IMG/VR virus record: IMGVR_UViG_3300035698_013143
Location: 1-26,495 of that record
Strand: one strand, 5' to 3'
Length of the DNA: 26,495 nt
DNA from: a virus
A program made the translations under genes and the position numbers. The notes under the pieces are model-generated. The model worked only from the letters and a program-made list of their open reading frames with translations, searched no databases and was not told where the DNA came from. The stretch's first letter is position 1; every line of letters starts with the position of its first letter. This document shows, piece by piece, positions 5,378-26,495 of the stretch.

Positions 5378-7963
5378 ATGAAAGGATTCTTCGATGGTAA
5401 TCAATACAAGACAAAAGAAGGTAGAAAAATTAAATCATGCGCCTCCTGTGGGTTGTTGACTGAAAACCCGCTACGGCAGCCCCAAGGTGAAGGCGGCAAG
5501 GGGATTTTAATCATAGTAGACAGGTTAACTCATACGGCGCATAGCAAGGGCAATTTTCTGGCAGATAAACATGGAAGATTCCTTACGAAAATATTAAGCG
5601 ATTTAGGTATTATAGTTGAACAAGACGTATGGCTTATGAGTGCTCACGCCTGCCCCTCACATACACAGGTGTCTAATCTTCAATACGATTGTTGTAACAA
5701 GAATTTGAAGAAACAAATAAAAGAAATAAAACCAAAACATATCATCTGCCTTGGAATTAGTGCCTTTCGTTCAGTTGTCAAGGAACATTATCACAAAGAT
5801 ATCACCGATTTAACCAAGTTTGAAGGTATAAACATACCGGATCAAACTTTAGGATGCTGGGTATCAGTGCTTCAATCACATGATAAAATTAACCAACAGA
5901 AGAATTATTCGGATGTTTTTCGTAATTGGAAAATTCAATTAAAACAGGCGTTTGCGATTGGAAATGAAGAAATTCCACCTTACACTCAATTACAAAACAG
6001 GTATAAGATAATCGAGGAACACAAAGAGCAAGTGCAATTTTTCAAATGGTTGGGGGAACAGAAGGAATTTACTACAGACATTGAAACAACGGGATTAAAA
6101 CCATATAACACAGACAGACATAAGATTGTGATTATTGGTTTCGCCGTCAATGATTGGGCTTATGTGATGCCCTTACCGAAAGGTAAGGCGTTACATTTGA
6201 TGAAAAAAGTTCTAAGTAATCCGGCTATTAAGAAAACTGCTCAGAATATGAAGTTTGAACATACGTGGTTCAAAACTATATTAGGAGTACATACAGAGGG
6301 GTGGCATTGGGATACAATGCAGGCACAGCATATAATAGACAATCGGGTAGGTATTACCGGATTAAAATTTCAAACCTATGTCAGGTTAGGAATAGCAGAT
6401 TACAGCTCACACATTGAAAAACATCTACAGGCGGAGGATAGTAATTCAGTTAATGGGATAGAGCTTGCCATGCAGGATACGACTATTCGGCACGATTTAA
6501 TGAAATACTGTGCTTTGGATTGTATGTGGACGGAAACCATCAAAAACCAGCAGAGAACGGAAATGACGGAGGGGCAGCAGGTTGCCTACGAATTAGTACA
6601 TACAGGTATTTTATCTTTCGCGGAAGCGGAGTGGCAGGGGATGAGAATTGACACAGATTACATTCATAAAACCTACATTGAAATTGACAACAAAATAGAA
6701 AGCTATGAAAAGAAATTAAAGAAAAGTAAATTCATAAGGGATTGGAAGAAACTATACAGGGAGAAAATGAACACCGGGAGTGGTACGCAATTGGCAGACA
6801 TCTTGTATAATCATTTAGGCTTAACCCCTCCGAAATTAACAGCTTCGGGAAAAGGGAGTACAGATGAAAATTCTTTATTCCAGTTAGATGTACCAGAATT
6901 ACATATGATACTGGAGATTAAGAAGTTACAGAAATTAAAGGCGACATATTTGCGTAATTTTGAAAAAGAAGCGATCGGGGGGTTCATGCACCCAGGATTT
7001 AATCTACATACTGTTCGTACTTATAGAAGTAGTTCCAATGCTCCTAATTTTCAAAACATTCCGAAACGAGATAAACAAGCCATGCAGACGGTTAGAGGAA
7101 GTATTTTTCCAAGAAAAGGGCATCAGTTAATGGAAGCAGATTTCTCAAAACTTGAGGTATCAATAGCTGCATGTTATCACAAAGACCCGGTGATGCTGGA
7201 ATATCTTACCTCAAATCACAATGATATGCACGGCGATTTGGCGCAACAAATTTTCTTTATTTCAGATAAAGATTGGGATAAACATTCCACCTGTCATAAC
7301 ATGTTAAGAGCGGCAACGAAGAACGGATTTATCTTCCCACAATTCTACGGTGATTATTACAAGAATAACGCTGAGGGTTTACGACAATGGGTAGAGCTCG
7401 GTACAGGGACTTGGAAACCTAACACAGGTATAGAAATGAATGATGGAACATTCATATCAGACCACATGAGAAATAACGGCATAAGGAGTTTTAAAGCCTT
7501 CGTAGAGCATCTTAGAATTATAGAAGAGGATTTCTGGAATAACAGATTTAAAGTGTATCAACAATGGAAGACAAAATGGATTCGCACTTTCCAAAAGCGA
7601 GGTTACTTTGATATGAAAACAGGGTTTCGGGTTTCTGGTAATATGCGGCAAAATGAAATTATCAATTACCCAATACAGGGAGCTGCATTTCATTGCCTAT
7701 TATGGAGCTTTATCCAATTGTCTGAGGAATTGAAAAGTAAGGGAATGGATACCAAGGTGATAGGTCAAATCCATGATGCAATTATCTTAGACGTTGCCCC
7801 TGACGAGTTGGATGAGATTTGCGTTATGATAAAAAGAATTACGACAATTGATTTACCAAAGGCATGGGATTGGATTATTGTACCGTTACAAATTGAGGCG
7901 GAATTATGCCCCGTGGATGCAAGTTGGGCGGAAAAGGCTGATTATTCGTTAGAAAAATATTAA
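5378..7963 (+). CDS. Family A DNA polymerase with N-terminal uracil-glycosylase-like domain (SPO1-type)
   Basis: 861 residues. Residues 1-190 resemble family-4 uracil-DNA glycosylase, with Cys21, Cys24, Cys92 and Cys105/106 in the pattern that holds a 4Fe-4S cluster; the usual glycosylase catalytic loop is not recognisable, so activity is doubtful. A DEDDy 3'-5' exonuclease follows (TDIETTG with Asp234/Glu236, AQNMKFEHTW, YCALDCMWT). The polymerase part has motif A MEADFSKLEVSIAA (Asp588), motif B RAATKNGFIFPQFYG and motif C QIHDAIILDV (His799-Asp800), where the usual HDE reads HDA but keeps the catalytic Asp. This is the domain order of SPO1-like replicative polymerases. It probably works with the clamp and loader nearby. 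The start has AAAGGA at 5362-5367, 10 nt upstream. Confidence 0.92.
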   Translation: MKGFFDGNQYKTKEGRKIKSCASCGLLTENPLRQPQGEGGKGILIIVDRLTHTAHSKGNFLADKHGRFLTKILSDLGIIVEQDVWLMSAHACPSHTQVSNLQYDCCNKNLKKQIKEIKPKHIICLGISAFRSVVKEHYHKDITDLTKFEGINIPDQTLGCWVSVLQSHDKINQQKNYSDVFRNWKIQLKQAFAIGNEEIPPYTQLQNRYKIIEEHKEQVQFFKWLGEQKEFTTDIETTGLKPYNTDRHKIVIIGFAVNDWAYVMPLPKGKALHLMKKVLSNPAIKKTAQNMKFEHTWFKTILGVHTEGWHWDTMQAQHIIDNRVGITGLKFQTYVRLGIADYSSHIEKHLQAEDSNSVNGIELAMQDTTIRHDLMKYCALDCMWTETIKNQQRTEMTEGQQVAYELVHTGILSFAEAEWQGMRIDTDYIHKTYIEIDNKIESYEKKLKKSKFIRDWKKLYREKMNTGSGTQLADILYNHLGLTPPKLTASGKGSTDENSLFQLDVPELHMILEIKKLQKLKATYLRNFEKEAIGGFMHPGFNLHTVRTYRSSSNAPNFQNIPKRDKQAMQTVRGSIFPRKGHQLMEADFSKLEVSIAACYHKDPVMLEYLTSNHNDMHGDLAQQIFFISDKDWDKHSTCHNMLRAATKNGFIFPQFYGDYYKNNAEGLRQWVELGTGTWKPNTGIEMNDGTFISDHMRNNGIRSFKAFVEHLRIIEEDFWNNRFKVYQQWKTKWIRTFQKRGYFDMKTGFRVSGNMRQNEIINYPIQGAAFHCLLWSFIQLSEELKSKGMDTKVIGQIHDAIILDVAPDELDEICVMIKRITTIDLPKAWDWIIVPLQIEAELCPVDASWAEKADYSLEKY

Positions 7964-23059: not shown

Positions 23060-23693
23060 GAAATTTGTTTGTGTACTAAAATCAGGGGGTGACTATCAGC
23101 CAAAACAGGTGATAAATTTATTTCATCAATGTGCGAAATATCTTTCACAAATGGATGAATTTATCTGTTATACGGATGTCCCGATCAATTACCCAGGGGT
23201 AATTGAAAAACCTTTGATAGGAGATTTAGAAGGGCGGTGGAATATGCAAGAGGTTACCCGGGAAACTGGGCATGTTATTGCCACAGGTTTGGATATCTTG
23301 TTTCGTGAAAATTTGAATTGGTTGTGGAAAATAGAAGTGCAACCAAACGAAGTGTATGGGATGCACGCATTTAAGGCGTCTAAGAAATGGGCGAATGGAG
23401 TCACATTGTGGAAAGGTGATTGGCGGAAAATTTATACAAATTACAATAACAGAATTGCGTATAGAAAATATGACTTAGAACAAAACTGGACGGCGGAGAA
23501 ATTAAGACGGGAAAAGGCGCAATTGTGTTACCTCGAAGATAAGGGGCTTAAAATCGCTTCATATAAGGTACATCTTTTGACACTGCAAAAGGGTTTAGAG
23601 GACGTTGATATAGTGATATTTCACGGACAACCCAGGCCTCACAATTTACCCAATGAAAGTATTATAGGAAAATTATATAAAGATTTTGATTAA
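23052..23693 (+). CDS. GT8-like glycosyltransferase
   Basis: 213 residues. The N-terminal KKFVCVLKSGGDYQPKQVIN resembles the opening strand of sugar-nucleotide glycosyltransferases. GHVIATGLDILFRENLNWLW sits where a 'DxD'-like metal site follows a Leu-Asp strand, although the canonical DxD is not seen. The end VDIVIFHGQPRPHNLPNE is very like the HG-x-PRP end motif of phage and bacterial GT-A proteins. It overlaps the preceding DUF115-like gene by 8 nt and is followed by the sulfotransferase after 1 nt, so all three are one expression unit. The probable reaction is sugar transfer to a virion or cell-surface acceptor; donor unknown. Confidence 0.65.
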   Translation: MIKKFVCVLKSGGDYQPKQVINLFHQCAKYLSQMDEFICYTDVPINYPGVIEKPLIGDLEGRWNMQEVTRETGHVIATGLDILFRENLNWLWKIEVQPNEVYGMHAFKASKKWANGVTLWKGDWRKIYTNYNNRIAYRKYDLEQNWTAEKLRREKAQLCYLEDKGLKIASYKVHLLTLQKGLEDVDIVIFHGQPRPHNLPNESIIGKLYKDFD

Positions 23694-23694
23694 A

Positions 23695-24405
23695 ATGAAA
23701 CAACCTATTTTAATCACAGGCGCAGCACGGAGCGGAACCAGTATGGTTGCCGGGTGTATTGAATTGGCAGGAGCCTTCGGGGGAATTACCAGTCCTCCAA
23801 ACAAGAATAACGCCAAAGGGATGTTTGAAAATATATACATTCGGAACAACGTTGTAAAGCCTTATCTAAGGGGGTTAGAAGTAGATTCAAAATGCCAATT
23901 TCCTCTCCCAGAAATTGATCACACACCATTACCTTGTGATTGGAAGGAAAGAATCGAAATAAATATTATCCACCAAGGGTACGATGGCAGTGGCGAATGG
24001 TATTACAAAGGTGCTAAAATGTGCCTGATGTGGAAATTGTGGAAAGAAGCATATCCAGATGCGAAATGGTTAATCGTACGACGGGACACGGAAGAAATTG
24101 TCTCTTCATGTATGAAAACGGGATTTATGACCGCTTTCGCAAATTCTCATAATCAAAGAAAAGTCGGGGTAACCTCAGAACGGGCAGGTTGGAGATGGTG
24201 GGTTGATCAGCACTTGAAGCAATTTGATTCCATGTTAGCAGATGAGGAATTAAATGTACGGGTAATACGACCAGAAAAATTGCTCTTAGGAGATTACAGT
24301 GAAATGTATGAAGTATTGCCTTGGTTAGGCTTAGAATGGAACCCGGAAATTGTTAATTTCATTGAACCAAAATTATGGAAAACAAGAAAAAAAGGACTTA
24401 AATAA
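23695..24405 (+). CDS. PAPS-dependent sulfotransferase
   Basis: 236 residues from ATG 23695. The TTG three codons earlier lies in the previous gene's stop region, so ATG is preferred. The 5'-phosphosulfate loop is ILITGAARSGTSMVAG (Thr8-Ser16), and the 3'-phosphate site is KWLIVRRDTEEIVSSCMKTG (from Arg129), both classic sulfotransferase signatures. The end (LPWLGLEWNPEIVNFIEPKL) is also typical. It moves sulfate from PAPS to a hydroxyl or amine acceptor, most likely a sugar given its neighbours. Phage sulfotransferases are rare and usually of unknown target. Its stop overlaps the connector gene (TAATG), so it is translated within the late operon, indicating expression during virion assembly. 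Confidence 0.85.
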   Translation: MKQPILITGAARSGTSMVAGCIELAGAFGGITSPPNKNNAKGMFENIYIRNNVVKPYLRGLEVDSKCQFPLPEIDHTPLPCDWKERIEINIIHQGYDGSGEWYYKGAKMCLMWKLWKEAYPDAKWLIVRRDTEEIVSSCMKTGFMTAFANSHNQRKVGVTSERAGWRWWVDQHLKQFDSMLADEELNVRVIRPEKLLLGDYSEMYEVLPWLGLEWNPEIVNFIEPKLWKTRKKGLK

Positions 24406-25159: not shown

Positions 25160-25648
25160 ATGGCACGCAAAAAGGCACGATTAAAAGGAATACAGGATGT
25201 GACGCAAGGTCTAAATACAGCTTTCGCCAAAATAAAAGGCGGTAGTAAGAAAGGTCTTATTGAAGCGTCAATTTTGATTAGAAGGGATATGGAGGCTACC
25301 TCGCCGAAGATTCCTTTGGATACTGGAAACTTACGTGCCAGTTGGTTCAGTGTCATAGGAAATGGAAATATAGCAAACTCAGGACAATTTAAGGGGAAAG
25401 GTGCTGGGAACGAAAAAGCACTTCATTCCCAGGCAATCTCGGTTGCAAATAATATCACAAAATCTACGGTTAATCCGGTTATCATTTTAGGTTTTTCAGC
25501 CAGTTACGCTGAAATCGTACACGAGGTAATGGATAGTAAGATTTCTTATAATCGGGCTGGTAGTGGGCCCAAATTCTTTGAGTCCGCTCTATACAGAAAT
25601 AAACAGCAGATTTTGAAAATAATTATGGAAAACACAAAGGTAAGATAA
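25160..25648 (+). CDS. HK97 gp10-like neck/tail completion protein
   Basis: 162 residues. LKGIQDVTQGLNTAFAKIKG at the N-terminus, ILIRRDMEATSPKIPLDTGN followed by LRASWFSVIG, and the C-terminal ILGFSASYAEIVHEVMDSKI plus GPKFFESALYRNKQQILKII are the standard gp10-family blocks, notably 'P.dTGnLRaSw' and 'YA.iVHe'. This protein completes the head-tail joint. It starts 5 nt after the stopper-like gene and is followed within 1 nt by the tail-terminator-like gene. Confidence 0.85.
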   Translation: MARKKARLKGIQDVTQGLNTAFAKIKGGSKKGLIEASILIRRDMEATSPKIPLDTGNLRASWFSVIGNGNIANSGQFKGKGAGNEKALHSQAISVANNITKSTVNPVIILGFSASYAEIVHEVMDSKISYNRAGSGPKFFESALYRNKQQILKIIMENTKVR

Positions 25649-25649
25649 T

Positions 25650-26495
25650 ATGAATAGTGTATCCTATGACATATCGCAATTAATTGAGTTTCAGAGTGAG
25701 GGGGAGATGGTATTTGCGCAGAATCTTTTCATCGGAAGGGAGCCTGCGGAAATCCCGGCATCTACCGTCATTACGTTATTCGATACAAGTTCCGCAAGTC
25801 CCTCCTCTACCTATTCTGGCAGTGATTACATGTATGATTCTATTCAAATTAGGATTAGAAGTAATTATGAAGATGCCTTTGTGATGGCAACGAATTTGAA
25901 ACGTTGGTTACACAACAAGATACCGGGGCTTATTAACGGAACCTATTATAAATTGGTACGGTTAAATTCAGGCCCTGCGGTACTGGATTATGATGAAAAA
26001 GACCGTGTAAGAATAGTAATGAACTTTATCATCCACAGAACGGATGATACAAACATTGTAATTATGAATTTAGGTGATATAGAATTTCATGTAGGAATTA
26101 CGGATTCCTCAGACCCTTTCCCAGATGTCGGGCAGTCAAACGTCTTATACGTTGATAAAGGCGAGCAATCCCAATATCTTTGGGATATTGTTTCCGAGGC
26201 ATACGTACAGATAGGCGGTGGCGGCGGTGGTGTGACTGTTCACAATGAAACGACAGACAGGGATGCAGAGGATGCTCATCCTCAGAGTGCTGTTACTGGG
26301 TTGGTTGATGATTTGGCAGCGAAGCAGGACAAACCAATAGTCTCAAGTTTAACTATTCCAGCAGCCAGTTGGGTTGCAGATGAACAAACGGTTACAGTAA
26401 CAGGTGTAACAGCTGATAATGAAGTAGATGTAATTATAGAAACGCAAGTTGATGGTGATTTGTGGGCGGATGCTAACATCTATGTAATTTCACAG
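25650..26495 (+). CDS. Tail terminator-like protein with C-terminal fibre-like extension, partial
   Basis: The frame from ATG 25650 stays open to the right edge (282 codons, no stop seen). Residues 1-130 (SYDISQLIEFQSEGEMVFAQ, then YDSIQIRIRSNYEDAFVMAT and a final strand VRIVMNFIIHRTDDT) resemble small tail-terminator proteins that cap the tail tube (about 130 aa). Unusually, the protein continues with NVLYVDKGEQSQYLWDIVSE, six glycines (189-194), HNETTDRDAEDAHPQSAVTG, and a beta domain starting IVSSLTIPAASWVADEQTV. The AHPxSAxTGL segment and Gly linker are typical of phage fibres and baseplate or head whiskers. It looks like a terminator carrying a neck fibre. It has no usual stop position, so the true length is unknown. 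Confidence 0.7.
   Translation, partial: MNSVSYDISQLIEFQSEGEMVFAQNLFIGREPAEIPASTVITLFDTSSASPSSTYSGSDYMYDSIQIRIRSNYEDAFVMATNLKRWLHNKIPGLINGTYYKLVRLNSGPAVLDYDEKDRVRIVMNFIIHRTDDTNIVIMNLGDIEFHVGITDSSDPFPDVGQSNVLYVDKGEQSQYLWDIVSEAYVQIGGGGGGVTVHNETTDRDAEDAHPQSAVTGLVDDLAAKQDKPIVSSLTIPAASWVADEQTVTVTGVTADNEVDVIIETQVDGDLWADANIYVISQ

Follow-up and report, generated by a model that had tools for sequence, protein, structure and literature searches.

Does the last open reading frame of this virus of bacteria, in which a tail terminator-like domain runs on into a fibre-like extension, encode a genuine fusion protein, and what might such a protein do at the neck of the virion? The window, i.e., the whole 26,495-base IMG/VR virus record analysed here, carries capsid, neck and glycan cassette genes in order, and its last frame exits the right edge. 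This frame begins at the ATG at 25650 and stays open through base 26495, which gives a protein of 282 aa, a lower bound set by the contig edge (Table 1). As judged from the sequence, the fusion of a terminator domain to a fibre-type module is confirmed as real, and the interpretation given in the initial annotation is borne out in part. The whole reading favoured here, that the one tail terminator detected in this phage is fused in frame to a fibre and forms host-contact arms rooted in the neck, is given a probability of about two in three.

Table 1. Position of the fused gene, its parts, its upstream context and the parallel fusion in a related contig.
Feature	Position	Strand	Evidence or context
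Sulfotransferase-like gene, cassette context	23686..24405	+	PF13469 2.2e-7
Tail completion / Neck1-type protein	25160..25648	+	phrog_5 1.5e-7; directly 5' of terminator
Tail terminator domain, residues 1-131	25650..26042	+	PF12691, AlphaFold2 model, VIA-align, 118 aligning relatives
Connector, residues 132-188, including NVLYVDKGEQSQYLWDIVSEAYVQI	26043..26213	+	Open frame, continuous codon usage
Six-glycine linker, residues 189-194	26214..26231	+	Sequence
Fibre-type motif VTVHNETTDRDAEDAHPQSAVTGLVDDLAAKQDK, residues 195-228	26232..26333	+	Motif loci, blastp, PHROG names
Beta-rich C-terminal start, residues 229-282, truncated at the contig edge	26334..26495	+	Low-confidence predicted strands
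Fused terminator, 847 aa, complete ORF	L088:5001-7544		Inside contig

The initial annotation had proposed an N-terminal domain of about 130 aa resembling a tail terminator, and this is borne out. Residues 15-130 match PF12691 (Phage_tail_terminator_6) with 39.9 bits vs. a cut-off of 23.8 (E 5.2e-10), and the frame also matches the head-tail connector family phrog_2595 (3.4e-4). An AlphaFold2 model built with an alignment of 52 homologues adopts a terminator fold, with a pLDDT that is mostly >90 for residues 1-131 and low beyond them; single-sequence fold prediction was uninformative (mean pLDDT 33). When compared by VIA-align, residues 1-135 of the model match the mycobacteriophage Douge connector (Z 15.7), T5 p142 (Z 13.9) and lambda gpU (Z 12.1). 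The last two proteins, with chains of ~160 and 131 residues, respectively, share the fold of this part but are without a fibre extension. Gene order is in keeping with a neck position on the upstream side, where the tail completion gene precedes the terminator; a homologue of that gene is found in all 75 relatives with at least 3 kb of upstream sequence, and the downstream side of the window gene lies past the edge. The terminator is the sole PF12691 match in its record, which is a fragment.

Past the terminator domain, at least 151 further residues follow in a single open frame with a continuous coding signal, in agreement with the claim of at least 150. R130 marks the point where the relatives end and the window frame carries on. 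From the base composition of the window, 152 codons without a stop would arise by chance with a probability of ~6e-6; the alternative forward frames of the extension contain 15 and 14 stops, and the frame favoured by codon usage does not change from one side of the terminator/extension junction to the other. A frameshift at this junction, which would have joined two genes, was looked for; none was found, and the coding signal is unchanged across it. Since the gene is cut at 26495, the tip of the fibre and the following gene lie beyond the edge. The six-glycine linker and the AHPQSAVTGL motif described earlier are both present, while the beta domain is suggested by predicted strands, mostly of pLDDT <60. 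Pfam and PHROG scans name no family in the extension at a credible E-value. Alignment with the ORF L221 covers extension residues 7-148 at 30% identity and spans the beta-rich part. Close relatives of the whole window protein were found neither in the viral contigs nor, at E 0.01, among 50,697 phage records, and a search of 50 records (the longer ones of ~120) for homologues of the extension gave no match at E 0.1 in the 49 records other than its own.

The fibre-type character of the extension comes from its motif. The segment HNETTDRDAEDAHPQSAVTGL fits the phage-fibre pattern HNxxxxRDAxDAHPxSAVTGL, and a scan of viral contigs for the core DAHPxSA[IV]TGL returned 47 loci. Flanks outside the searched core match as well, in line with a tail-fibre module of the HNxLTGRDAxDAHPxSAITGL type: by blastp, the extension is 68% identical to L232 over 38 aa (1.3e-10), 45% to L192 over ~65 aa and 48% to L231 over ~65 aa (extension residues 28-94). 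Rheinheimera phage tail fibres reach 60% over 30 aa (E 0.2-0.3). Of 45 motif rows, 8 have a GGG/GGS/GGD-type stretch a short way ahead of the motif. Ten motif ORFs were scanned against PHROG: in eight, the matching family is named tail fibre, tail or minor tail protein, L204 matches tail-fibre as well as head-decoration families, and L232 is without a match. The ORFs of the 47 motif loci contain no match to the terminator profile. The window therefore joins a common fibre module to an uncommon anchor. A joint alignment of fibre fragments and terminators was set aside, as MAFFT placed the fragments on the terminator. A related form of the motif, HNxLxGRxAxDAHPISAITGL, is also encoded in many contigs by small free-standing ORFs (~100 aa), which share the conserved N-terminal part YKMRALVDDL (L193, L196, L199, L202, L207, L209, L211, L214 and others).

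How rare such an extension is can be read from the relatives of the terminator domain. Two viral contig scans, from which the best 80 of 214 and the best 80 of 205 relatives were taken, were merged and complemented with one contig from a Halanaerobiaceae MAG, giving 118 distinct relative contigs. The terminator ORF measures 127-145 aa in 117 of these 118; the exception, L088, has 847 aa. Plain terminators are also found in four further relatives, of 137 aa in G004, 131 aa in G007, 149 aa in Brevundimonas phage MaInes and 145 aa in Nitrincola phage 1M3-16. The earlier statement that terminators end at about 130 aa therefore holds for this lineage but not for terminators in general, since some are enlarged by sheath-binding or duplicated domains (PMC11784142). 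In a survey of 398 genomes of one phylum, to which an overlapping second sample added nothing, PF12691 had 29 matches in 28 genomes, in open frames of 84-160 aa save one of 294 aa. This one, in the bacterial genome G207, is a 290-aa ORF (L182:4314-5186) with an N-terminal PF12691 domain and a long unrelated C-terminal part. By eye, it lacks the fibre motif and adjoins a tail-sheath-like ORF; on these grounds it was kept out of the tally of fibre fusions and is a different kind of enlarged terminator.

The relatives were also inspected for split genes. Among 38 of the 118 loci viewed by eye, none has a separate next gene resembling the extension, and 37 have one conserved, tail-protein-like type of ORF after the terminator. 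The start of this next ORF is conserved and unrelated to the extension, and the idea that the extension is a displaced major tail protein is thus not supported. In L031 the first ORF past the terminator, from 5399, has 186 aa and takes the place of the tail protein; it resembles a GIY-YIG homing endonuclease.

The one extended relative, L088, provides a parallel case. Pfam finds in it PF12691 (2.1e-17), fn3 (7.3e-10) and a GDSL lipase match (6.3e-5) that stays under the curated cut-offs (PF13472, 24 bits vs. 32.9; PF00657, 20.7 vs. 23.6). Its flanks are in order, with the tail completion gene upstream and a tail-protein ORF 190 bp downstream, and its record, also a fragment, has no PF12691 match besides the fused copy. 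At the C-terminus, GDST, GLND and DHIH are readable in the sequence, which may correspond to the GDS, GxND and DxxH blocks of SGNH/GDSL hydrolases. Over its last 158 residues, L088 shares 40% identity with the C-terminus of gp28 of Vibrio phage 1.013.O, the last gene of a tail-tip block, and the GLND and D.IH end aligns with it. The C-terminus of L088 thus looks GDSL/SGNH-like and is possibly an enzyme. Because the L088 fusion is intact inside its contig, it removes most of the concern that the window fusion arises from a contig edge, without thereby proving the window's own junction. Among 50 records (the longer ones of ~120), the L088 extension matches its own record alone at E 0.001, and neither of the two extensions matches the other's record. 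Since the extensions are unrelated, separate origins of the two fusions are likely. A tree of 94 terminator rows, for which identical rows were merged and L058, the start of which is cut, was left out, requires two changes for the two fused rows; it leaves the window unplaced, and one origin of both fusions is compatible with its well-supported branches. Taken together, L088 and the window indicate that terminator-fibre fusions do occur, though rarely, and that they draw on fibre parts unrelated to each other.

In the proposed arrangement, residues 1-131 would assemble into a hexameric ring, closing the tail tube and joining it to the head. From the C-terminus of each ring subunit, the connector, the glycine hinge and the fibre module would extend and bear a further domain past the contig edge, so that up to six covalently rooted arms per virion could stand at the neck and act as accessory host-contact appendages. 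In L088 the arm would be made of FN3 repeats with a GDSL/SGNH-like hydrolase at the end. A host-contact function is proposed because of the fibre motif and the hydrolase-like tip of L088; ring assembly, outward projection and a part in the binding or processing of surface glycans are inferred. Against this reading, fibre modules mostly form trimers, which a hexamer would have to accommodate. Hexameric terminator rings are reported for lambda (PMC10721106) and T5 (PMC11784142). In contractile particles (XM1, PMC10457771; Milano; pyocin), the C-terminal arm of the terminator is described as reaching the outer sheath, which fits an outward projection. The T5 source also describes that a C-terminal tag on the terminator led to aberrant fibres and suggests that the tag folds back into the lumen (PMC11784142); outward projection is therefore not assured.

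Other explanations of the frame differ in whether the fibre is attached to every ring subunit, whether it is adhesive and whether it belongs there at all. An unlikely one is that the gene yields two products, either because a fibre started at an internal ATG is made alongside small amounts of the full-length fusion or by proteolysis between ring and arm, in which case the fibre would not be covalently rooted in every ring subunit. In fact, the connector contains an in-frame ATG (26064, Met139) right past the conserved end of the terminator. However, no clear Shine-Dalgarno sequence is seen by eye ahead of it, the next Met of L088 lies >30 residues beyond the terminator end, within the following domain region, and no such gene stands on its own at this position in the inspected relatives. 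Distinctly improbable is a structural rather than adhesive extension, which would brace the head-tail joint or decorate the first rings of the tube like the additional terminator domains of contractile tails. The larger terminators cited above and the G207 ORF beside a sheath-like gene speak for it; against it, the added parts are of fibre type and that of L088 ends in a hydrolase-like domain. Very improbable is an artefact in which a sequencing error or a chimeric contig end joins the terminator to part of a foreign fibre gene: although the extension is located where the contig ends and the exact junction recurs in no other contig (0 matches), the single open frame keeps the phage's own codon usage throughout, and L088 has its fusion inside a contig with ordered flanks.

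Neck appendages as such are already known, and the sources cited here describe them as separate proteins docked on the neck or collar. One system close to the proposed arms is the neck passage structure (NPS) of the lactococcal 936 and P335 phages, which likewise places fibres with carbohydrate-binding or esterase-type modules at the head-tail joint, in addition to the tail-tip receptor binder (PMC6669499). The NPS is a separate protein of 500-900 residues, of which the first ~130 are BppU-like and make up a collar proposed as an 18-mer (PMC6669499), whereas the window anchor is the tail terminator itself. Pfam and PHROG scans name no BppU or fibritin family in the window protein, the N-terminus of which is a terminator; the protein may work like the NPS or a fibritin whisker, yet it is not classed as one. 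The collar spike gp40 of Vibrio phage XM1 is a neck appendage bound to the terminator gp5 and to gp4, for which host sensing or attachment has been proposed; it is a separate trimeric protein, unfused to the terminator, in a contractile phage (PMC10457771). Long fibres at the neck are also present in cyanophage A-1(L) and in T4, as fibritin whiskers, but as separate proteins, and those of A-1(L) are anchored on a gp5 15-mer and not on the terminator (PMC10966104). Caution is advised by the finding that the distal module of the A-1(L) neck fibre showed no host binding in the reported assay. Ring-forming tail proteins that likewise carry a host-binding module include evolved Dit and the MTP-TpeX of 936 phages (PMC6669499); these rings are found at the tip of the tail or along its tube, whereas that of the window is the head-proximal terminator. 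No terminator-fibre fusion was found in print by title or start of abstract in open-licence PMC papers, a search that does not prove absence. If the covalent neck arm holds true, the terminator would be a third ring, after Dit and the major tail protein, that displays host-contact modules, in a defined sixfold copy number, and would serve to test how large a load the proximal tail cap can bear and still dock to the head. As a single-gene case, it would make the function of neck fibres testable by trimming one gene.

The initial annotation had further suggested the extension as the acceptor of the glycan cassette nearby, and the relatives argue against this. Among the 75 with at least 3 kb of upstream sequence, a sulfotransferase homologue lies upstream of the neck genes in 72, and 71 of these have no extension, L088 being the only extended one; glycosyl- or sialyltransferase homologues are found upstream in 63 of the 75. 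G004 combines a sialyltransferase-like gene and a sulfotransferase with its plain terminator. As the cassette is lineage-wide and the extension almost confined to this phage, the cassette more probably has a general acceptor in the virion. The sulfotransferase gene (in relatives, L029-L160) is usually accompanied by other glycan genes, forming a lineage-wide cassette within the head-neck block.

Elsewhere in the window, the ORF at 5378-7963 encodes a family A DNA polymerase with exonuclease and polymerase domains, ahead of which lies an N-terminal match to the uracil-DNA-glycosylase superfamily (PF03167 5.1e-6, residues 53-146). A further ORF, at 1986-2933, matches the TET-associated glycosyltransferase family (PF20691 1.8e-27), which suggests, from the family match, that the DNA of this phage may contain modified bases.
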